DNA of 64,000 nt from Mycobacteroides salmoniphilum (GTDB lineage: Bacteria > Actinomycetota > Actinomycetes > Mycobacteriales > Mycobacteriaceae), in NCBI RefSeq assembly GCF_004924335.1, contig NZ_CP024633.1, positions 3,162,001 to 3,226,000 of the forward strand. The letters are read 5' to 3'. The position numbers were made by a program, and so were the translations under genes. Shown here piece after piece: positions 54,476 to 64,000 of this stretch. Within the stretch, counting starts at the first letter, position 1. Each line of letters opens with the position of its first letter. The notes under the pieces are model-generated. The model saw only the letters and a list, made by a program, of their open reading frames with translations, had not been told where the DNA came from and did not search any database.

Positions 54476-55669
54476 GTGACCGAGAAGCACTACGACATTG
54501 CGGTAGTCGGCGGGGGCCCGGCCGGGTCATCCGCGGCCTGGCAGGCCGCTCGCACGGGCGCCAGCGTGGTTCTCGTCGATAAGGCCGAGTTCCCGCGGGA
54601 TAAGCCATGCGGCGACGGGCTGACCGCCCGCGCGGTGAGCTACCTGCAGAAGATGGGCCTGGCCCATGAGGTCGCCCAGTTCCACCGGGTCGATGGTGTG
54701 CGCGTCGACAGCGGCAGTGTCTGGGAGCTCACCTTCCCCCAGCGTCCCGGGATGCCCAATCACGGGCATGTGGTGCGCCGGCCCGAGCTGGACACGCTGC
54801 TGCTCAAGCACGCCGAGTCCGCGGGCGTCGAAGTGCGCCAGTCCACCGAGGCGGTGGGCCCGATCGGCGATGGCAATCTGGTCAAGGGCATTGAGGTCAA
54901 GACCGCGAATGGATCTCGCGAGACCATCTCGGCCGACGCGGTGATCGTGGCCGACGGCGCCTACTCCCCCATCAAGCGCGCGATGAACCTCGACTCGGAG
55001 GTCAAGGGGTACACCGCGATTGCGATCCGCGCCGAGATGGAAGCCAACCGCGAAGACTCGAACATGCTCGACATCGACCTGCGGTTGCACCATAAGAATG
55101 ACGCGCTGATCGGATACGGCTGGGTATTCCCGCTCGGTGCCGGGCGGATCAATATCGGCATCGGGTACGTCAACAGCTACAAGAAGTGGCAGGACGTCAA
55201 CGCGGCGCAGGTGCTGGACACTTACATGAAGAAGCTGCCCCGGGAGTGGGAGCTGCCCGATCTGGCCGAGCTGCGCAAGAACAAGGGCGTGCGGGCCTGG
55301 CGCCTCCCGATGGGATTCACCGCATGGCCGCCCTGGCGCCCCGGCGTGCTGTTCGCCGGTGACGCGCTGGGCGCGGGCAAGCCGGTCAGTGGTGCCGGCA
55401 TCTCGAAGGCACTCGAATCCGGTTTGGCGGCAGGTGAATGCGCGGTGGCGGCGTTGCAGAACGCCGGTCCGCAAGACTTCACCAACTACCAGCAGCGGAT
55501 GAATGACGCCTGGGGCCGGGAGTACCAGCGGGGACGGATCATGCACCGGGCGTTGGGCAATCCGTGGCTGTGCGACAAGGGCATCAAGCTGATGGACAAC
55601 TCGATGTTCCGCGACAATCTGCTGAAGGTCTTGTACAAGCGGGCCCAGGGCCCCGGCCACAAGCACTGA
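54476..55669 (+). CDS. Geranylgeranyl reductase-family flavoprotein
   Basis: A 397-residue FAD-dependent reductase. The N-terminal Rossmann motif is DIAVVGGGPAGSSAAWQAAR, the family's CGDGLTARAVSYLQKMGL follows, and GYGWVFPLGAGRINIGIGYVNS and GVLFAGDALGAGKPVSGAGISKALESGLAAG are the substrate and FAD segments. Members reduce isoprenoid double bonds in menaquinone, polyprenols or archaeal-type lipids; MenJ (Rv0561c) is the related Mtb enzyme for menaquinone. Whether this is MenJ or a paralogue cannot be settled. GTG start, 29 bp after the SDR stop; co-transcription is likely. Confidence 0.85.
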   Translation: MTEKHYDIAVVGGGPAGSSAAWQAARTGASVVLVDKAEFPRDKPCGDGLTARAVSYLQKMGLAHEVAQFHRVDGVRVDSGSVWELTFPQRPGMPNHGHVVRRPELDTLLLKHAESAGVEVRQSTEAVGPIGDGNLVKGIEVKTANGSRETISADAVIVADGAYSPIKRAMNLDSEVKGYTAIAIRAEMEANREDSNMLDIDLRLHHKNDALIGYGWVFPLGAGRINIGIGYVNSYKKWQDVNAAQVLDTYMKKLPREWELPDLAELRKNKGVRAWRLPMGFTAWPPWRPGVLFAGDALGAGKPVSGAGISKALESGLAAGECAVAALQNAGPQDFTNYQQRMNDAWGREYQRGRIMHRALGNPWLCDKGIKLMDNSMFRDNLLKVLYKRAQGPGHKH

Positions 55670-55675
55670 TCTGCC

Positions 55676-56344
55676 GTGTGGTCGATCCGGCGGCGCGAGA
55701 TGATACTCGCCACCGGACTGTCAAGTGTGGCAGGTTTTCTCGACGCGATCGGGTTCGTACATCTGGGCGGGTACTTCCTGTCCTTCATGAGCGGTAACAC
55801 GACCAGGATGGCCGCCTCGACGGCCGCACAACAGTGGGAATCCGCCTACAAGGCAGCCGGTTTGATCGCCATGTTCTTCATCGGCGTGATGATCGGCGCC
55901 ATCGCGTCACGCGTCAGCGGCGATCACGAGCGGGTCGCCGTGCTGGCGGTCGCCTCGACAACCGTGGCCGCGGCGGCGATCACACAGGAATTCGGAGCGG
56001 GTGTCGCGGCGCTGCTCCTCACGGCGCTGGCCATGGGTGCGATGAACTCGGTTTTCCAGCGCTCCGGCGAGGTCCAGGTTGGCCTCACCTACATCACCGG
56101 CACCGTCGTGAAGGCCGGACAGCGGCTCGTCGACGCGTTCTTCGGCGGACCCCGATGGGTGTGGCTGCGCTACATCACGCTGTGGGCGGGCCTGACCGCC
56201 GGCGCCGTGTCGGGCGCCGCGACCTACCACCGCATCGGGCTCGATGCGCTGTGGATCGGATGGGCACTCCTGCTCATCGCCACGGCCACCACGTGGCTGG
56301 TACGCCGATCGAGCCCCGCCCGGCCGGTACTAGATCCGGATTAG
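55676..56344 (+). CDS. DUF1275 (YoaK) membrane protein
   Basis: The 222-residue protein has six predicted helices and the DUF1275 start pattern SSVAGFLDAIGFVHLGGYFLSFMSGNTTRMAAS, where GFVHLGGYF and MSGNT are family signatures. Function unknown, suspected transporter or permease component. GTG start, 6 bp after the flavoprotein gene, so probably the third gene of the same operon. Its 3' end overlaps the convergent MDMPI-type gene by 15 bp. Confidence 0.88.
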   Translation: MWSIRRREMILATGLSSVAGFLDAIGFVHLGGYFLSFMSGNTTRMAASTAAQQWESAYKAAGLIAMFFIGVMIGAIASRVSGDHERVAVLAVASTTVAAAAITQEFGAGVAALLLTALAMGAMNSVFQRSGEVQVGLTYITGTVVKAGQRLVDAFFGGPRWVWLRYITLWAGLTAGAVSGAATYHRIGLDALWIGWALLLIATATTWLVRRSSPARPVLDPD

Positions 56345-57067
56345 ATCCAGCACCTGCTCCACGCGGGCGCCATCTCCGTCGACTGCCAGGCGTGACAACG
56401 GAACCCGGTGCCACAGCGCAAGCAGCAGATCGGACGTGGACGCCGTGATCGTGGCGTCCGGTACGGCGTCTTCGTCCACGATGCCAATGGCATCGGCATC
56501 CACACGCAGCAGCCACGAACCGTCCGCGTCGCTGGCGGTCAAGAGGATTCGTGCTCCCCGAAGGCCTTCCGGGGTCCCGCCTTCACGTCCGATACGGCGG
56601 GGCGTGAACAGCTCCGACCACTCGCCGATGCCGTCAGCCGCCAGGGCAGCGTCGATGGGTTCGGCGTCCCATCCGCGATAGGCGTGCTCAATGTCCCAGC
56701 GGTGCACCGCCACCTCGTTTGCCTGCCTGCGATACCAGAACCGCACCGGCCGCTCACCGAAGGGCGATTTCGTCGGCGCATCAAGGTCTTTCGACGTCAA
56801 AGCGGCGACGAGATTGTCCGCACGGTCGGCGTACCAACCGATGACGGCCTCCCCTGTCGGGGCGTCCGGGTCGACGTCGGTGTATGGAATCTTTTGACCG
56901 ACAATGACTCCCACTGCCCAGTGGTGCACTCCCCCGAGATGGGCAACGACGTCGCGCGCCGTCCATCCCGGACAGGACGGTGCCTTATGGTCCAGGTACT
57001 CGGACGACGTCGCCGCGACCGCCGATATCCCGTTACGCAGCGCTTCCAGCCACTGTTCAGGCGTCAC
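56330..57067 (-). CDS. Maleylpyruvate isomerase-family (DinB/MDMPI-type) enzyme, possibly mycothiol-dependent
   Basis: The 245-residue protein follows the TIGR03083/MDMPI_N layout: APSCPGWTARDVVAHLGGVHHWAVGV at the N-terminus (the first metal-His is VAHLGG; HH in GVHHW is adjacent) and VRFWYRRQANEVAVHRWDIEHA with two further histidines, a DinB-like four-helix metal site, then a C-terminal lid domain. Several such enzymes use mycothiol. Substrate unknown. ATG 57067; the small upstream spacer to 57227 has no recognisable motif. Confidence 0.85.
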   Translation of the reverse strand: MTPEQWLEALRNGISAVAATSSEYLDHKAPSCPGWTARDVVAHLGGVHHWAVGVIVGQKIPYTDVDPDAPTGEAVIGWYADRADNLVAALTSKDLDAPTKSPFGERPVRFWYRRQANEVAVHRWDIEHAYRGWDAEPIDAALAADGIGEWSELFTPRRIGREGGTPEGLRGARILLTASDADGSWLLRVDADAIGIVDEDAVPDATITASTSDLLLALWHRVPLSRLAVDGDGARVEQVLDLIRI

Positions 57068-57227
57068 GCGCCCATTAGATCACTGACGAGTCTGAATCTC
57101 GCGCCGGTTTCGGGACGATAAGCGTCGCGAGACTCAGACTCGGCGCTGCGGCTATCCACGAGCCCACCGCCAACGCCGAGATTCCCGCCCCCTCCCACCC
57201 CGAAAGAGCCGACACCAGGACGCGGCG

Positions 57228-57941
57228 TCAGCGCCGCCCGCGCTTGGCCGGGGTCGTCTTGCTGGCGCGCTTGCCCGCTGCCGCTCGGGCGGCCTGCTTC
57301 GCGATGGTCTTCTCCCGTGCGGTGCGCTTCTGCGCGGGCGGATCCTGCCCTCGCGATGACCCGGGTTTGCGACCCCGCACAATGCCGATGAACTCCTCGA
57401 CCAGGTCCGTCTGCGGCCCTTCCGGAAAAGCGAGTGCCACCGGGCAGGCGGGCGCGTCGGCGATCGGCCGGTACGTGAGGTCCTTGCGGTGATACAGCCG
57501 CGCCAGTGACTGCGGAACGATGAGCGCGCCGATTCCTGCGGCGACGAGTTCTATTGCTTCCTCGGTGGTTTCGGGCCGGTGATCGACCGGGTTACCGGGA
57601 GCACCGGCCCAGGCAATGACGTCATCGAGTGGGAGCAGCATCGGCTCACCGTCGAGGTCTGCGGCGGTGATCGTGTCGAAGGCACTGAGAACGTGATCGG
57701 TCGGCGCCACGATCACCGTTGCCTCGTCGTAGAGGGGAATGATGGCCAGCCCCGAGGTGTCGGCCGGCGGCCGCAGCAGCGCCACATCGACGGTCCCCTC
57801 CCGCACCGCAGCGGGCGCGTCGGCTGCCGCAACGACGCGCAACTGCAGCGGGACCTCGGGGTGACGCTGCGCCCAGACCCGAGCCCACTTCGCGGGCGTC
57901 CCGCCGGGGACGTACCCGAGGGTGAGGGAGCGCGAGGTCAC
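57228..57941 (-). CDS. LysR effector-domain protein without HTH, with basic C-terminal tail
   Basis: The 237-residue product consists of a LysR-type ligand-binding domain (SLTLGYVPGGTPAKWARVWAQRHPEVPLQL, VALLRPPADTSGLAIIPLYDE, AAGIGALIVPQSLARLYH) but lacks the N-terminal helix-turn-helix; the GTG start follows a 28-bp spacer to the divergent gene, leaving no room for one. The last ~35 residues are a Lys/Arg/Ala tail (KRTAREKTIAKQAARA, then GKRASKTTPAKRGRR), reminiscent of histone-H1-like tails, which could bind DNA or RNA. Divergent from a DUF5997 gene; such pairing is common in mycobacteria. Confidence 0.8.
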   Translation of the reverse strand: MTSRSLTLGYVPGGTPAKWARVWAQRHPEVPLQLRVVAAADAPAAVREGTVDVALLRPPADTSGLAIIPLYDEATVIVAPTDHVLSAFDTITAADLDGEPMLLPLDDVIAWAGAPGNPVDHRPETTEEAIELVAAGIGALIVPQSLARLYHRKDLTYRPIADAPACPVALAFPEGPQTDLVEEFIGIVRGRKPGSSRGQDPPAQKRTAREKTIAKQAARAAAGKRASKTTPAKRGRR

Positions 57942-57969
57942 TGCCTCAGGCTACCGATAGGCTGGTCCT

Positions 57970-58350
57970 ATGAGCAGGCCGAACGCGCAGTCCATGAAAC
58001 CCGCTACCGCGGCGAAAAAGCTGGACGTGTACCTGCAAGCGACACCCGCGGAGTTCCAGGAGAACCCGATTACCCGTGCCGAGCTCGCGGCCCTGCAGGC
58101 GGACCCGCCGCAGTGGCTCAAGGACCTCCGCAAGAACGGACCGCACCCGAAGAACCTTGTGGCAGCCAAGCTGGGCGTCTCGATCTCCGGTCTCTCGCGC
58201 GGCGGCGTCGAGGGTGCGCTCACCACCGAGCAGATCAACCAGTTGCTCGAGGAGAAGCCAGAGTGGCTGGTCGCGGAACGCGAGAGCTATCAGAACGTGC
58301 TGCGTGAAGAGCGACGCCTGAAGGCCCAGCATGCGGAGAAGGCTCGCTAG
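57970..58350 (+). CDS. DUF5997 protein
   Basis: A 126-residue, charged, mostly helical protein: MKPATAAKKLDVYLQATPAEFQENPITRAELAALQADPPQWLKDLRKNGPHPKNLVAAKLGVSISGLSRGGVEGALTTEQINQLL. The segment KNLVAAKLGVSISGLSRGG resembles a small DNA-binding helix-turn-helix with a following wing, so a regulatory role with the divergent LysR-effector protein is possible (inference). ATG 57970, 28 bp from the divergent start. No function is known to me. Confidence 0.75.
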   Translation: MSRPNAQSMKPATAAKKLDVYLQATPAEFQENPITRAELAALQADPPQWLKDLRKNGPHPKNLVAAKLGVSISGLSRGGVEGALTTEQINQLLEEKPEWLVAERESYQNVLREERRLKAQHAEKAR

Positions 58351-58396
58351 AACCGCGAGAACTGAGCCCATACGCAGTACCGCAGTGCACGGCCCC

Positions 58397-59104
58397 CTAC
58401 TGGTTCAGCGCCAGTTGCGCGATGACTGGGCCTGTTGGCGTGGTCGAACCTCGGCCGTTCTCGACAGTGAATGCCAGTGCGGTGGAGTCGTTGAGACGAG
58501 GTATGACCGCCGTAGTCGAGGGTGAGACTGCCTGAGCATCCATCGTTCCCGCGGACTGCGGCCCGCGGTCGCCGATCAGCCACATTTGGTAAACGGTGCC
58601 GGGTTGTGGTGGTGCGACATTGTTCATCACCAACACTGCGGTGTTCTTCTGCCGCGAGTAGACGACGGTCGCGGTACCACCGGTGGGAATGGCGCCAGTA
58701 ACGGTCCGCACGTCGGTTGCGGTGAAGACTTGCTGCGCACTCGGAGGCGGAGGCCACAGGATGGTGCCGATTCCGGCGGCGGCCAACCCGATAGCGGTGG
58801 CGGCCGCCACGGCAACCACGGGCGCCCGCCAGCGGTTGATATCTGTTGTTCTGGAAACTCTTTCGGCGTCCCGGGCCACTATCTTGAGTAGTCGTGGGCG
58901 AAGCCGGGCCGGGGGTTCGACCGCGGTGCTTGCCGCCAAGGCCGCCATGGTTTCCCGTGTGGCACGCACTTCCTCGGTAAAGGAGAGCGTTTGTTCGGTC
59001 GCGCCCGTCGACAGCCAGTGGTCGATCTGATCTCGTTCATCGTCGGGCAACGCGTGCAATGCGTAGGGGGCGGCGGCGGTGACGAGGTCGTTGGGTTCGG
59101 TCAT
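58397..59104 (-). CDS. rskA: Anti-sigma-K factor RskA
   Basis: The 235-residue membrane anti-sigma factor matches Mtb RskA (Rv0444c). The N-terminal sigma-binding part contains APYALHALPDDERDQIDHWL and EEVRATRETMAAL; a single helix (APVVAVAAATAIGLAAAGIGTILW) follows and the extracytoplasmic domain contains FTATDVRTVTG, TATVVYSRQKNTAVLVMNNVAPPQPGTVYQMWLIG. It holds SigK inactive until regulated intramembrane proteolysis. ATG 59104 overlaps the sigK stop (ATGA); an upstream ATG 15 bp earlier is possible but lies inside sigK. Confidence 0.95.
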   Translation of the reverse strand: MTEPNDLVTAAAPYALHALPDDERDQIDHWLSTGATEQTLSFTEEVRATRETMAALAASTAVEPPARLRPRLLKIVARDAERVSRTTDINRWRAPVVAVAAATAIGLAAAGIGTILWPPPPSAQQVFTATDVRTVTGAIPTGGTATVVYSRQKNTAVLVMNNVAPPQPGTVYQMWLIGDRGPQSAGTMDAQAVSPSTTAVIPRLNDSTALAFTVENGRGSTTPTGPVIAQLALNQ

Positions 59105-59682
59105 GGTGTCCCCAGGCATCGGCGCAGCGCCTTGATTGCGTCACGCATCCGAGATTTGATGGTTGCCAGATTCGCGGCAAGCCGTTGCGAGACTTGGTTA
59201 TAAGTCAAACCGTCGTAGTAGGCCAGATGCAGGCATTGACGTTGGGTATCCGTCAGCGTTTCGAGGCATACGGTGACTTGCCGCTGCTCTTCGTTGCGAA
59301 TCACCGATTCAGTGACCTCGTCGACAGCTCTCTCGATCGTGGCGGCGCCATAGCGTGACTCGCGGTCGGCCGCAGATTGCTCTGAGCGCACGCGGTCGAT
59401 GGCGCGACGATGAGCCAAGGTCATGATCCAGGCAAGGGGCGAGCCGGCGGTCGGGTCATAGCTTTGGGCCGAACGCCAGATCTGTAGGTAGATCTCTTGC
59501 GTTGTCTCCTCGCTGTAGCCGGGGTCGCGTAATACCCGCAACACCAGACCGTAGACGCGTGCGCGGGTGTGATCGTAGAGAGCGGCAAACGCCTCGGTAT
59601 CGCGGTCGGCGACGCGGCGCAAAAGGACATCCAGGTCGCCGGTCACGCCCGTGAGCCTAAACGCATCGCGGAGAATGTTCAT
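59101..59682 (-). CDS. sigK: ECF sigma factor SigK
   Basis: A 193-residue ECF sigma factor corresponding to Mtb SigK (Rv0445c). Region 2 includes RVYGLVLRVLRDPGYSEETTQEIYLQIWRSAQSYDP and AHRRAIDRVRSEQ, and region 4 includes ETLTDTQRQCLHLAYYDGLTYNQVSQRLAANLATIKSRMRDAI. Mtb SigK drives mpt70/mpt83 and its own operon through −35 CCATCC and −10 CCGAAT. Fifth gene of the operon headed by the FAD-oxidoreductase gene; coupled by ATGA on both sides. Confidence 0.96.
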   Translation of the reverse strand: MNILRDAFRLTGVTGDLDVLLRRVADRDTEAFAALYDHTRARVYGLVLRVLRDPGYSEETTQEIYLQIWRSAQSYDPTAGSPLAWIMTLAHRRAIDRVRSEQSAADRESRYGAATIERAVDEVTESVIRNEEQRQVTVCLETLTDTQRQCLHLAYYDGLTYNQVSQRLAANLATIKSRMRDAIKALRRCLGTP

Positions 59683-60464
59683 GATGATCCGCGTTTCGGG
59701 CGACGCGGCACGAAAAACGACACCCGCCGTTGGTAGTCAGTGAATCCGGGCCGCCCGGCCATTGCCTTCTCGGTGCGGCGACCGCCGGTGGCGTAGACCA
59801 GGAAGTAGGTCATCAGCACGGGGTACGGCACTGTTGCCAACGATTGCCAACCGGTGATGGTGACCAACCACAGCCCCCACCACACGCAGGCATCGCCGAA
59901 ATAGTTCGGGTGCCGAGTCCACGCCCATAGGCCCTGGTCCATGATCTTGCCCTTGTTGGCAGAGTCCTGCTTGAAACGGCGCAGCTGATAGTCGCCCGCC
60001 GCTTCGAAAAGCATTCCGAGCAGCCATAACCCGATACCGGCGGCCAAGACGGGGCGCAGCGACTCGGGGGTGGGCCCTTCGACTGCTGAGCGTTGAATGG
60101 GTAGGGATACCAGCCAGGTGGCGGCGGCCTGGATGGCGAAGATCTTGCGTAGTACATGGGGCACAGAGAAGTCGCCGCCGAGCAGGTCACGATACCGTGG
60201 GTCTTCACCTTTCCCAGCCGATTTCACCAGCATGTGCCAGGACAGCCGGGCTCCCCATACCCCAATCAGCACCAGCAACAGAATGCGCCGCCAAAGGTCA
60301 CCGCCGCCGAGCGCGGTGCAGACCGCGGCGACGGCGATGAACCCAATACCCCAAGCGACGTCGACCACGTTGTAGCGCCCAATGCGGTAGCCGATAAGGA
60401 AAGTAACACCGTGCACAACTGCCACGGCACCCAGCGAGCACGCCATCACGATCAGAAAGTTCAT
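59679..60464 (-). CDS. DUF1295 (steroid 5-alpha-reductase-like) membrane protein, Rv0446c-like
   Basis: The 261-residue protein has several helices and the DUF1295 C-terminal signature AGDYQLRRFKQDSANKGKIMDQGLWAWTRHPNYFGDACVWWGLWL, where HPNYFGD binds the nicotinamide cofactor in relatives. It may reduce or isomerise a lipid double bond at the membrane. The ATG 60464 overlaps the ufaA1 stop (ATGA), and its own stop overlaps sigK start, so it is translationally linked to both. Mtb order kept. Confidence 0.9.
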   Translation of the reverse strand: MNFLIVMACSLGAVAVVHGVTFLIGYRIGRYNVVDVAWGIGFIAVAAVCTALGGGDLWRRILLLVLIGVWGARLSWHMLVKSAGKGEDPRYRDLLGGDFSVPHVLRKIFAIQAAATWLVSLPIQRSAVEGPTPESLRPVLAAGIGLWLLGMLFEAAGDYQLRRFKQDSANKGKIMDQGLWAWTRHPNYFGDACVWWGLWLVTITGWQSLATVPYPVLMTYFLVYATGGRRTEKAMAGRPGFTDYQRRVSFFVPRRPKRGSS

Positions 60465-61735
60465 TGTTGGCCTCGCTGGAAAATCCATTGGTGGACATCG
60501 AGATACCCGGAACGAAATCCAGCTTCCGAGTAGGCCAAGTAGAGCTCCCACATGCGGTAGAACGCGTCGTCGAAGCCCAACGCCGACACGGCCTCGCGCT
60601 GAGCCGCGAGCTGCTGGCCCCATAACCGCAGCGTTTCGGCGTAGTGGGGTCGCAGGGACATTGTCTCGATGGTCCGCAGGTGCGTGGCATCAGTGGTCGT
60701 TTCGGTGATTGCCCGCACCGAGGGAAGCAGACCGCCGGGGAAAATGTACTTCTGTATCCAGGTGTGGGTGTTGCGACTGGCCAGCATCCGCTCATGGGGC
60801 ATGGTGATGGCTTGAAGGGCCAGCCGGCCGCCCGGCCTCAGCAATCGGTCGATGGTTTGGAAGTACGTTGTCCAGAAATCGAATCCAACCGCTTCGATCA
60901 TCTCTACCGACACGATGGCGTCGTATTGTCCCTGCACGTCTCGATAGTCGCGCAGCTCTATCTGCACTCGGTCGGACAGCCCGGCAGCTTGTACCCGCTG
61001 CTGCGCCAGTTTCTGTTGCTCGCTCGATAAGGTGACCGACCGTACATGCGCTCCGCGAGCGGCTGCCGACAAGCACACCTGCCCCCAGCCCGTACCGATC
61101 TCGAGAACCCGGGTGCCGAGGCCTACCTGTGCGTGGTCCAGCAGGCGGTCGATCTTGTGACGCTGGGCATCCGCCAGTATCTCCGCTGAGCCCGGGATGT
61201 GGTCGAACAGTGCGCACGAGTAGGTCATCGTCTCGTCCAGGAACAGGGCGAAGAACTCATTCGACAGGTCGTAGTGATGCGCAACATTGCGTTGGGCCTG
61301 CGTTGGCTCGTTACGCTGGGTCCGAGGGACACTCGGCACCGCGATACGTCGGAAGCGCTGCAGCACAGCAGGAACCAGCTCCCCCATCGACGCTGCCCAC
61401 TGGGTGAGAAAGTCGCCCAGATCGTCGCAGTCCCAGTCTCCAGCCATGTATGCCTCACCGAACCCGATCAAGCCGTAGCGGCCCAGGCGTCGTGCCAGCG
61501 CCGCGGGCCGCCGGATCCTCATGGTGGGCAGGGACGCATCTGCTGCGCCCACAACGGATCCATCGGGGTACATCAATCGCACCGGGAGCCGCGCGGCCGC
61601 ACGACGCAGCAGCTTGTCGGCTACCACCGCTCGTGCCGCCGTCAGCGGCCCAGAGGGAACCGGCGTGATATCCGGCCCGCGGTGCGCTCTGATATCGCGC
61701 ACATCGGTTGTGGCGCTGTCGAGATGCCCGTTCAC
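60461..61735 (-). CDS. ufaA1: UfaA1-like SAM-dependent fatty-acyl methyltransferase (CFA-synthase family)
   Basis: A 424-residue cyclopropane-fatty-acid-synthase-family enzyme with a long N-terminal region, then RNVAHHYDLSNEFFALFLDETMTYSCALF, the SAM site VLEIGTGWGQVCLSAAARG, and VSVEMIEAVGFDFWTTYFQTIDRLLRPGG and IQKYIFPGGLLPS. Mtb UfaA1 (Rv0447c) has been linked to tuberculostearic-acid-type C10 methylation. GTG 61735 fits because it overlaps the DUF1365 stop (GTGA) and precedes the family N-terminus; the longer open frame reads through that gene. Confidence 0.9.
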   Translation of the reverse strand: MNGHLDSATTDVRDIRAHRGPDITPVPSGPLTAARAVVADKLLRRAAARLPVRLMYPDGSVVGAADASLPTMRIRRPAALARRLGRYGLIGFGEAYMAGDWDCDDLGDFLTQWAASMGELVPAVLQRFRRIAVPSVPRTQRNEPTQAQRNVAHHYDLSNEFFALFLDETMTYSCALFDHIPGSAEILADAQRHKIDRLLDHAQVGLGTRVLEIGTGWGQVCLSAAARGAHVRSVTLSSEQQKLAQQRVQAAGLSDRVQIELRDYRDVQGQYDAIVSVEMIEAVGFDFWTTYFQTIDRLLRPGGRLALQAITMPHERMLASRNTHTWIQKYIFPGGLLPSVRAITETTTDATHLRTIETMSLRPHYAETLRLWGQQLAAQREAVSALGFDDAFYRMWELYLAYSEAGFRSGYLDVHQWIFQRGQQ

Positions 61736-62469
61736 GCTGCCCTCGCCCTCTCGTGTGTGGGTGTGCGCTCCACCACCGGTAGCCCTTTCAGCCACAGCCT
61801 GATCCCTTCTATACGGATGGCCAGCGCACCCATCAGCGGCGCCAAGGGCGCAACGGCCTGCAACCACAACAGTTCACCGACCCGGGCCCGGCGCCGGGTG
61901 CCGCGGACCGCGGCGAAGAACGGCCGCTGGCCGCTGCGCTGCAGCGAGATACTGATATTCAACGTCTTGCCGGGGCGGGCAGCACGAACTCGATATCGCC
62001 CGTCGACGCCGTTGAAAGGAGACACGTAAAGCTGTTTGTCCACTTCAGAATCGGCAGTCGGCGGCAGCAGATATGCGTGTCGCCCGCCGTAGGTGTTGTG
62101 GACCTCGGCGATTATGTGCGCAAGATTGCCATCGCGGTCGTGGCACCAGTACAGACTCAGCGGGTTGAAGACATGCCCCAACACCCGTGCCTGTAACAGC
62201 GCGGTGATCGTACCGCCGCCCAGGTCTACCCCGTGCGAGGCTAAGAATCGGTCCACACGCTGGCGCAGCGTGTCATCGTCATCGCCCCGGAAATGGTCCC
62301 GTGCTTGGAAACTGGCGAAGGCACCCAGGCCGAGAGGCAGGCGCGGCGGCTTGTCGATATCGATGTACCAGCAGTAGCCGCGATAGGTGAACCGGTGCGT
62401 CACCGGCGAACGCCGCACATGCAAGATCCGGGTGCGGTACAGGCAGGGAACCATCGTCGCCGAATTCAT
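61732..62469 (-). CDS. DUF1365 protein, Rv0448c-like
   Basis: The 245-residue protein has the DUF1365 signature at its N-terminus, PCLYRTRILHVRRSPVTHRFTYRGYCWYIDIDKPPRLPLGLGAFASF, and VLGHVFNPLSLYWCHDRDGNLAHIIAEVHNTYGGRHAYLLPP. Members occur beside CFA-type methyltransferases and FAD oxidoreductases in fatty-acid modification loci; the biochemical role is not established. Starts ATG 62469 overlapping the FAD-oxidoreductase stop, ends overlapping the ufaA1 start. Confidence 0.9.
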   Translation of the reverse strand: MNSATMVPCLYRTRILHVRRSPVTHRFTYRGYCWYIDIDKPPRLPLGLGAFASFQARDHFRGDDDDTLRQRVDRFLASHGVDLGGGTITALLQARVLGHVFNPLSLYWCHDRDGNLAHIIAEVHNTYGGRHAYLLPPTADSEVDKQLYVSPFNGVDGRYRVRAARPGKTLNISISLQRSGQRPFFAAVRGTRRRARVGELLWLQAVAPLAPLMGALAIRIEGIRLWLKGLPVVERTPTHERARAA

Positions 62470-63785
62470 CGTGCTCCCACCCGGTGCTCGCGCCTACCGG
62501 CCGCACCGGCCGGCCAGTCCCGGCCCAGTGCTTGTGCTGCGCGTAGGCCCGAGGCCGCGCCGTCCTCATGGAATCCCCACCCGTGGTACGCACCGGCGAA
62601 CGCGATGCGGCCGTCGTTGAGACTTGGCAGTCTGCGTTGGGCGGCAACAGATTGCGACGTGTAGACCGGGTGACGGTAGGTCATTTCGGCAAGCAGCGCC
62701 CCGGCGTCTACCAGGTGTTCACCGCCCAGGGTGACCAGAAACCTGTGCGGGCCAGGCAATCTCATCAACCGGGTGATGTCATACGTCACCACGACGCCGT
62801 GGGTGCCACCCATGCTCAGGTAGTTCCACGACGCACGGGCATGTGCATGGCGCGGCAGCAGCGACTCATCGGTGTGTAGTTGCGCGGAATTGCTCACGTA
62901 TCCCATGGCTCCCAGGACCGCACGCTCGGCAGCGGTCGACTGCGCCAGCAGGTCCAGTGCCTGATCGGGATGCGTCGCGATCACGGCGGCATCGAAAACC
63001 GTCGGCGGGTGTCCCGCAGCCGTTACCGCTACGCCCTCGGGGATCCGCTCGATCTGGGTGACCGGGGCATCGGTGAACGCCTCGTGCAGACCGCGCACCA
63101 CAGCGTCGACATACGTGTGCGAGCCCCCTGTGACTGTTTTCCACTGCGGCGACCCGAACACCGACAGCATGCCGTGATGGTCCAGGAATCTGAACAAGTA
63201 CTGCGCGGGGTACGCCATGGCCTGCCCGGGCGGGCAGGACCACACGGCGGCCACCAGTGGTGTCAGGAAGCGGTCAAGGAAGAACTGCGAGAAACCGGAC
63301 TGCTGAACAAAATCCCCGAGACTCAGGGCTTTGTCGTCTGCGTCGGGGTCAGCGAGCAGTCGGCGCGCGCGGCGGTGAAACCGCTTGATCTCTGCCAGCA
63401 TCCACAGATAGCGAGGACTCGCTGCGGCGGGTGAGGCGAAAAGGCCGCGCACACCCCGTGCACCGGCGTACTCCAGGCCAATGCAGTCGTCGCGTACCGA
63501 CATCGACATATCCGTGTCGGCCGTCTCGATACCGAGTTCGTCGAACAATCGGCACAGTGTGGGGTAGGTCCGGTCGTTGTGCACCAAGAACGCGGTGTCG
63601 ACCGCGGTCAGTGCACCTTGGCCGGCATCGACGAACTGCGTATGAGCGTGGCCCCCGAACCGCCCATCGGCCTCGTACAAAGTGACCCGGTCGTAGGCAG
63701 AAAGCACGTACGCTGCGGTCAGTCCGGCCACGCCACTCCCGATGACGGCGATGGACCGTGTGCCGGGGCCAGATATTGCACTCAC
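62466..63785 (-). CDS. FAD-dependent amine-oxidase-like oxidoreductase, Rv0449c-like
   Basis: The 439-residue flavoprotein begins SIAVIGSGVAGLTAAYVLSAYDRVTLYEADGRFGGHA, the dinucleotide-binding motif and Arg/Gly loop of the NAD(P)/FAD amine-oxidase/phytoene-dehydrogenase superfamily. Later LRAAQALGRDWPAG is the closing FAD segment. In related clusters such enzymes desaturate or reduce the methyl-branched fatty acid made by the CFA-type partner. First gene of the operon, start at GTG 63785: a perfect SigK promoter lies just above, putting the likely transcription start within about 0-2 bp of this codon (a leaderless mRNA). Mtb orthologue Rv0449c. Confidence 0.88.
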   Translation of the reverse strand: MSAISGPGTRSIAVIGSGVAGLTAAYVLSAYDRVTLYEADGRFGGHAHTQFVDAGQGALTAVDTAFLVHNDRTYPTLCRLFDELGIETADTDMSMSVRDDCIGLEYAGARGVRGLFASPAAASPRYLWMLAEIKRFHRRARRLLADPDADDKALSLGDFVQQSGFSQFFLDRFLTPLVAAVWSCPPGQAMAYPAQYLFRFLDHHGMLSVFGSPQWKTVTGGSHTYVDAVVRGLHEAFTDAPVTQIERIPEGVAVTAAGHPPTVFDAAVIATHPDQALDLLAQSTAAERAVLGAMGYVSNSAQLHTDESLLPRHAHARASWNYLSMGGTHGVVVTYDITRLMRLPGPHRFLVTLGGEHLVDAGALLAEMTYRHPVYTSQSVAAQRRLPSLNDGRIAFAGAYHGWGFHEDGAASGLRAAQALGRDWPAGAAGRREHRVGAR

Positions 63786-63792
63786 ACCCCGT

Positions 63793-63819
63793 ATTCGGAG
63801 TAAACCGGCCCACGGATGG
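63793..63819 (-). promoter_or_regulatory. SigK promoter of the sigK operon
   Basis: On the reverse strand CCATCC (63819-63814) and CCGAAT (63798-63793) are 15 bp apart, identical to the Mtb SigK −35 and −10 elements. The predicted start point, about 7 bp after the −10, is at the GTG of the first gene, so SigK would autoregulate its own operon from a leaderless message. Confidence 0.85.
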
Positions 63820-63875
63820 GTATTGCCTGTTATCAGGCGGCGTCCGGCACGGGCCCGGCTTTTTACACAACAGAC

Positions 63876-63902
63876 CCATCCGGATGACGTTCGGCACCGA
63901 AT
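63876..63902 (+). promoter_or_regulatory. Second SigK promoter, divergent, reading rightward
   Basis: CCATCC (63876-63881) and CCGAAT (63897-63902) are again exactly 15 bp apart, on the forward strand. It lies 57 bp from the other SigK promoter and fires away from it, toward a gene starting near 63923. Two perfect copies back to back make chance very unlikely. Confidence 0.85.
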
Positions 63903-63922
63903 GACAACAGAGCTGCGCACAC

Positions 63923-64000
63923 ATGCCCCCCGAAGTACGGCCGCCCCCGTACACCGCAGAGAAAAGACCGCCAGGTCGACGTCCCCGTACCGCCTATGAA
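63923..64000 (+). CDS. Start of a gene downstream of the second SigK promoter (truncated by window)
   Basis: From ATG 63923 the frame is open to the end of the window (26 codons: MPPEVRPPPYTAEKRPPGRR...). The N-terminus is Pro- and Arg-rich, like the cytoplasmic start of some mycobacterial membrane or secreted-protein precursors, and there is no signal peptide in the visible part. It lies 21 bp after a perfect SigK −10, the right distance for a SigK target. Other frames ending at 63999 are weaker. Identity cannot be told from 26 residues. Confidence 0.45.
   Translation, partial: MPPEVRPPPYTAEKRPPGRRPRTAYE

Follow-up and report, generated by a model that had tools for sequence, protein, structure and literature searches.

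A predicted bidirectional SigK promoter between the sigK operon and a methyltransferase gene in Mycobacteroides salmoniphilum

Introduction

Which genes does SigK control in Mycobacteroides salmoniphilum besides its own operon? The question is raised by one end of a 64,000-nucleotide stretch of this genome (the whole stretch that was analyzed, referred to as the window), where two SigK-type promoter sites face outward. Major antigens of the tuberculosis complex belong to the SigK regulon, and the signal to which SigK responds is of interest; the excerpt of PMC9861118 used here calls the activating stimuli obscure. In M. tuberculosis and M. bovis, the regulon of SigK and its anti-sigma factor RskA comprises the sigK locus and mpt83-dipZ-mpt70, and orthologous SigK and RskA are encoded in the window. 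In the excerpted text of PMC10540498, SigK control is confined to two loci, and none of the rightward genes described below is named. An additional M. tuberculosis target, sigC, has been reported (PMC4821874, excerpt), so that SigK targets outside mpt70/mpt83 are not wholly new.

A sequence-only reading of the window had proposed that SigK controls both its own operon and a rightward gene at 63923, which would be a target outside the mpt70/mpt83 set. We consider it very probable that the intergenic region is a bidirectional SigK promoter, with a leaderless mRNA to the left, a leader of ~105 nt to the right, and a regulon that amounts to one locus of about ten genes. This estimate covers the promoter and its genes and is separate from any purpose in stress. 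A compact predicted regulon with recognizable lipid, heme-binding and photorepair genes, and with no fasciclin gene, would be well suited to a search for the signal, and the locus also offers two precisely defined promoters whose start sites can be predicted.

Results and Discussion

Two opposed SigK-type sites

CCATCC and CCGAAT are the SigK consensus hexamers of M. tuberculosis. A pattern search found two exact copies of CCATCC-N15-CCGAAT that point outward, one on the minus strand (63793-63819; -35 hexamer CCATCC at 63814-63819, -10 hexamer CCGAAT at 63793-63798) and one on the plus strand (63876-63902; -35 hexamer at 63876-63881, -10 hexamer at 63897-63902). Both are intergenic. The search of the window and of the genome bears out the two perfect opposed copies that the sequence-only reading had seen. 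The sites are separated by 56 bases (63820-63875), the reported 57 being the value by subtraction, and their "identical 15-bp spacers" are identical in length (15) but differ in sequence. The 56-bp stretch is common to both outward promoters.

In the complete genome (4,776,697 bases), these two are the only exact sites, and the reversed-pattern control gave 0. The chance expectation for the window is 0.03, and none of 100 shuffles contained two sites. A chance origin of the pair, or its descent as a relic of shared coding sequence, is extremely improbable given these shuffles, the intergenic position of both sites, and hexamers that stay constant among relatives while the flanking bases vary (see below). 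A megablast comparison of window positions 55000-64000 with phage records gave no match. The string CCATCC is absent from PMC7509140; the assignment of the hexamers to SigK has indirect backing because the motif precedes orthologs of reported SigK targets in other genomes (see below).

A search that tolerates up to one mismatch gives 42 sites genome-wide, of which 40 are inexact. We examined 39 of these 40 (one, at 4629462, was left out), and 34 of the 39 fall within genes as called by our own codon-usage model. The remaining five are unconvincing as promoters, three having no called same-strand gene downstream. Rejected as promoters were the site in L106, with a gene 256 nt away, and the site in L098, which is 2-3 nt ahead of a lipB-like gene and inside an operon. 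The best candidate left is one of the 34 intragenic sites (L230), which is also 53 nt upstream of a plus-strand gene. No further convincing SigK target was thus found among 39 of the 40 one-mismatch sites.

The sigK operon

Six minus-strand genes follow the left site. The first (62466-63785) encodes an FAD-dependent amine-oxidase-like protein (Pfam Amino_oxidase, 94 bits), which we take to be Rv0449c-like by its position. It is followed by genes for a DUF1365 protein (61732-62469; Pfam PF07103, 213 bits), a cyclopropane-fatty-acid-synthase-like protein (60461-61735, start codon approximate; Pfam CMAS, 321 bits) and a DUF1295 protein (59679-60464, start codon approximate; Pfam PF06966, 233 bits). 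The NCBIfam CFA synthase models match the product of 60461-61735, but under their cut-offs; it is presumably UfaA1-like. Next is sigK (59101-59682), an ECF sigma factor gene (NCBIfam SigK model NF007228, 294 bits with a cut-off of 226). SigK residues 13-191 align to the solved SigK chain 4nqw_A (E 3e-75). The gene for the cognate anti-SigK factor, rskA (58397-59119; Pfam RskA_N and RskA_C), is directly downstream, and the two reading frames overlap.

The operon of M. tuberculosis and M. bovis is alike, with genes for two uncharacterized proteins ahead of UfaA1 and for a further one between UfaA1 and SigK-RskA, and it is autoregulated via a promoter before the first gene, as is predicted here (PMC7509140, PMC10540498, both from excerpts). 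No second sigK copy was found in this genome, the next match to SigK being only 30% identical. In the excerpt of PMC6418233, one sigK copy is given for M. salmoniphilum and M. chelonae, two for salmoniphilum-like strains and zero for M. abscessus ATCC 19977. M. smegmatis, too, is reported to have no sigK (PMC4596819, excerpt).

The GTG start codon of the first gene, at 63785, is 7 nt after the left -10 hexamer. Among 80 retained sigK loci, 47 have an FAD or DUF1365 gene as lead gene on the sigK strand, and near the start of this gene, 44 of the 47 carry a site with no more than one mismatch. An in-frame start codon is found exactly 7 nt past the -10 hexamer in 42 of the 44 (39 GTG, 3 ATG), which makes a leaderless sigK-operon mRNA a conserved prediction. 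The left site looks like a functional SigK promoter, conserved ahead of the sigK operon. Leftward transcription by RNA polymerase with SigK would begin on the GTG of the first gene, about 7 nt past the left -10 hexamer, and the leaderless mRNA would cover the six-gene operon including sigK and rskA, which amounts to autoregulation.

The rightward genes

The rightward gene does not start at 63923, since the ATG found there is in a frame unrelated to the downstream protein. A start at 63996 would open a longer reading frame, and was rejected because its ATG is not conserved among nine orthologs. The ATG at 64014 is conserved in all nine, with a GAAAG or GGAAG stretch ahead of it, and is preferred since it alone is conserved. 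Extending the sequence past 64000 thus identified the gene as that of a methyltransferase which starts at 64014, 14 nt outside the window (L003:11014-11907 on the plus strand, where the start corresponds to window position 64014). Rightward transcription is predicted to start near 63909-63910, which would give a leader of ~105 nt; the predicted 5' leader occupies 63903-64000 on the plus strand up to the window edge. The proposal that SigK controls its own operon and a rightward gene is partly supported, in that both sites look like functional promoters, with the position of the gene revised.

The protein belongs to the cyclopropane mycolic acid synthase family (NF040660, 507 bits with a cut-off of 390; Pfam CMAS, 399 bits). 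Its best solved relative is CmaA1 of M. tuberculosis (1kp9; residues 6-288, 492 bits), and it aligns with MmaA2 (1tpy) over residues 7-289 (459 bits). CmaA1 and MmaA2 are mycolic acid cyclopropane synthases; the methyltransferase is assigned to the family by sequence, and a role in mycolic acid modification is predicted. Two further methyltransferase paralogs are encoded in this genome (67% and 56% identity).

Downstream on the same strand are genes for a SOUL heme-binding protein (L003:11930-12565), a TIGR01777 oxidoreductase (L003:12629-13987) and a photolyase (L003:13984-15351), followed by a convergent TspO gene. The four genes are separated by gaps of 22 and 63 nt and then by a 4-nt overlap, and from this spacing they likely form one operon, read as a single rightward transcript; the 22- and 63-nt gaps make internal promoters possible. 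A search for fasciclin genes gave 0 matches in this genome, and the control search was positive in 4 of 14 genomes. In contrast to M. tuberculosis and M. bovis, fasciclin is absent, and the second arm consists of the methyltransferase, SOUL, reductase and photolyase genes, which have their intergenic region in common with the sigK promoter. With the fasciclin family absent and the right site predicting a different target, a SigK target outside the mpt70/mpt83 set, as the sequence-only reading had expected, is upheld as a prediction.

Conservation among Mycobacteroides relatives

We searched 396 genomes of the genus, listing matches with E of at most 1e-150 and scoring at most six candidates per genome. 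Among the matches listed, methyltransferase orthologs with at least 88% identity occur in nine genomes, this one included. All nine have the FAD gene in divergent orientation and an exact right site. The left site is a perfect match in eight genomes and differs by a single mismatch in the remaining one, so that neither motif is lost in these close relatives. In the nine-genome alignment, 23 of 24 hexamer columns are invariant (left 11/12, right 12/12), versus 43 of the 197 columns that make up the spacers, the gap and the leader (Fisher p 7e-13, a nominal value because the nine genomes are related). The 56-bp gap, with 10 of 56 columns invariant, shows no further strongly conserved operator-like block in this alignment. 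By identical coordinates, four of the nine correspond to L005, L006, L008 and L009, so that the nine-genome set overlaps the set of 80 sigK loci. A tenth genome (L004) also has the methyltransferase gene and both exact sites. The loci of six methyltransferase homologs with 75-78% identity contain neither an exact nor a one-mismatch site.

Two relatives are instructive. G044 (L007, labeled chelonae) lacks the methyltransferase gene genome-wide (best match 55%); its left site is present, its right site is missing, and two other sites of the form CC[AG]TCC are intragenic. Site and gene are thus absent together. In G077 (L343), the methyltransferase gene and both sites are present, and a genome search gives no match to SOUL or photolyase, which points to the methyltransferase rather than the photolyase as the constant target. 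In this genome, a TspO gene is directly convergent with the methyltransferase gene.

In these relatives of M. chelonae, opposed copies of the SigK promoter in one stretch suggest that SigK probably activates its own operon and the neighboring one, and if the two sites drive both operons, the SigK regulon of this lineage is probably one locus of about ten genes that does without mpt70/mpt83. An alternative would be that only the left site works, the right one being used by another sigma factor, or bound by SigK and silent. We regard this as unlikely. It could draw on the difference between the two spacer sequences and on the frequency of one-mismatch motif matches within genes, but the right hexamers are invariant in 9/9 genomes, G044 lacks site and gene together, and there is no exact copy in the genome beyond this pair.

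The motif as a mark of SigK in other genomes

In 24 relatives of the genus, 69 exact sites were found in 22 genomes, and the reversed pattern gave no hits. We examined 70 sites, these 69 and one from G026. Twenty-five precede the sigK locus (13, one of them counted through a gene called across the site), fasciclin genes like mpt70/mpt83 (11) or a DipZ-like gene (1), and about 37 are within called genes or ahead of unrelated genes. Fasciclin and DipZ assignments were made by eye, from the starts of the proteins; Pfam agreed for the single fasciclin that was checked, and the DipZ start scored under the Pfam cut-off. The sigK locus and genes of the fasciclin and DipZ types are published SigK targets (PMC10540498, PMC9861118, both from excerpts).

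In searches with the form CC[AG]TCC, the reversed-pattern control was not always zero, which includes the survey of L004, L007 and the M. kansasii complex; a survey of 98 genomes with this form was excluded from the counts. In five genomes, which we take to be the M. kansasii complex, this form gave 29 sites. The recognizable downstream genes among the 22 sites that were read are the sigK operon, fasciclin or RslA-like genes, and no crt or photolyase gene follows a site among these 22 of 29.

A site near the sigK operon that points away from it is also found in other mycobacteria (L026, L029, L030, L032, L042 and L073), and in L030, L032 and L073, a second site faces the sigK operon. The opposed gene in these six is, by eye, an mpt83/mpt70-like fasciclin, whereas in M. 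salmoniphilum it encodes the methyltransferase. In excerpts of the literature on SigK in chelonae/abscessus and on mycobacterial photolyase, we found no description of a SigK-driven methyltransferase.

What is the regulon for?

More tentatively, the two operons may share a purpose, namely membrane-lipid and DNA repair or protection after photo-oxidative or other membrane oxidative stress, and light or oxidative damage may be the trigger of SigK. In its strongest form, SigK-RskA would be a mycobacterial photo-oxidative switch (light, tetrapyrrole, singlet oxygen), with both operons as one response and with mpt70/mpt83 as later or alternative outputs. Such a response would remodel unsaturated lipids, handle photosensitizing porphyrins and repair DNA. 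We find a switch of this kind rather doubtful.

The Rhodobacter RpoE-ChrR regulon may be comparable, with an ECF sigma/anti-sigma pair, cyclopropane-fatty-acid-synthase genes and a photolyase. At the locus described here, photolyase and cyclopropane-fatty-acid-synthase genes stand behind SigK-type sites as predicted operon members, and 0 of 30 photolyase loci have a nearby site. According to the excerpt of PMC7074977, RpoE and ChrR of R. capsulatus are induced by photo-oxidative stress; they have 34% and 25% identity to SigK and RskA of M. tuberculosis, and 24% and 13% to RpoE and ChrR of R. sphaeroides. Unlike Rhodobacter ChrR, the RskA protein has RskA_N and RskA_C and no other Pfam domain hit. 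In Nesterenkonia, RskA drops after UV (PMC8965627, excerpt).

Light responses are described in the excerpted text of PMC9861118. In M. kansasii, light raises the SigK-target orthologs mpk83 (6-fold) and mpk70 (3-fold), as well as carotenoid and photolyase-tspO-mmpL genes. Only 14 genes responded to light; the excerpted table contains no sigK-operon gene, and dipZ, which has a putative SigK site, was unresponsive.

The genomic evidence is divided in a similar way. An exact site up to about 120 nt upstream of the SOUL gene is found in 3 of 40 non-Mycobacteroides genomes (G020, G021 and G069), with a chance expectation of 0.003 (300-nt stretches); the 40 comprise 18 relatives with a SOUL gene, their coordinates compared by eye, and 22 genomes from the photolyase-locus set. 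In G020, the site falls within a gene on the minus strand that is itself weakly called. M. kyorinense (L028) has a SOUL-photolyase pair or operon behind a one-mismatch site, at a distance of about 7.5 kb from sigK, and also a methyltransferase-like gene after rskA. In G012, TspO is downstream of a site. Among the best 30 photolyase loci by score, none has a site within 800 nt of the photolyase, and a general link between SigK and photolyase is thus unsupported; the test is blind to operon members because our own gene, fourth in its operon, counts among the 30. Two genomes are outside these 30 loci. G011 (L191) has a fasciclin gene with a SigK site, and the next gene called behind it is photolyase; G003 (L214) has a site about 0.77 kb upstream of photolyase. 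In L161 and L207, crtE-crtB-like genes have a SigK-type site 73 nt ahead of their called start. Because this site overlaps the 3' end of the preceding coding gene, crtE-crtB was given less weight as a SigK target, and the crtE sites in these two genomes may be a coincidence.

The SigK promoter claim is shared by a plainer explanation, in which both arms are SigK-dependent and the right arm is an ordinary operon for cell-envelope lipids. The SOUL, reductase and photolyase genes would be passengers or have promoters of their own, with no photo-oxidative meaning. We give this close to an even chance. G077, with both sites and the methyltransferase but neither SOUL nor photolyase, agrees with it, and so do the photolyase genes elsewhere (0/30 with sites), the methyltransferase-like genes that adjoin sigK in L028 and L075 as well, and the M. 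kansasii light table without sigK-operon genes. It does not account for the direct SOUL sites in three other genomes, far above chance, for the SOUL-photolyase pair behind a one-mismatch site in L028, or for the light response of mpk83 and mpk70. We put forward the photo-oxidative reading as a conjecture because of the M. kansasii table, the unresponsive dipZ, the 0/30 photolyase loci, the minority of SOUL genes with sites, the crtE overlaps and G077.

A side observation concerns G002, where a fasciclin-like gene has a SigK site ahead of it. About 2.5 kb downstream of this site, photolyase matches are found in separate pieces, one with a stop codon (C1:1398241-1399337).

Further arrangements of SigK-type sites

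In seven loci (L181, L196, L204, L234, L259, L266 and L267), a SigK-type site is positioned between a sigma-factor gene and a zf-HC2 anti-sigma gene. These anti-sigma genes are RslA-like, named by eye, and the site is 19-85 nt before the called start. Via these loci, SigK could raise the anti-sigma factor of another sigma factor.

In M. septicum (L075), a methyltransferase gene of the same family (70% identity) is directly upstream of sigK, and a divergent one-mismatch site is ahead of a different gene cluster. Outside mycobacteria, L078 (Rhodococcus) has divergent one-mismatch sites in the stretch that separates the sigK operon from a gene for a secreted lipocalin-like protein, identified by eye.
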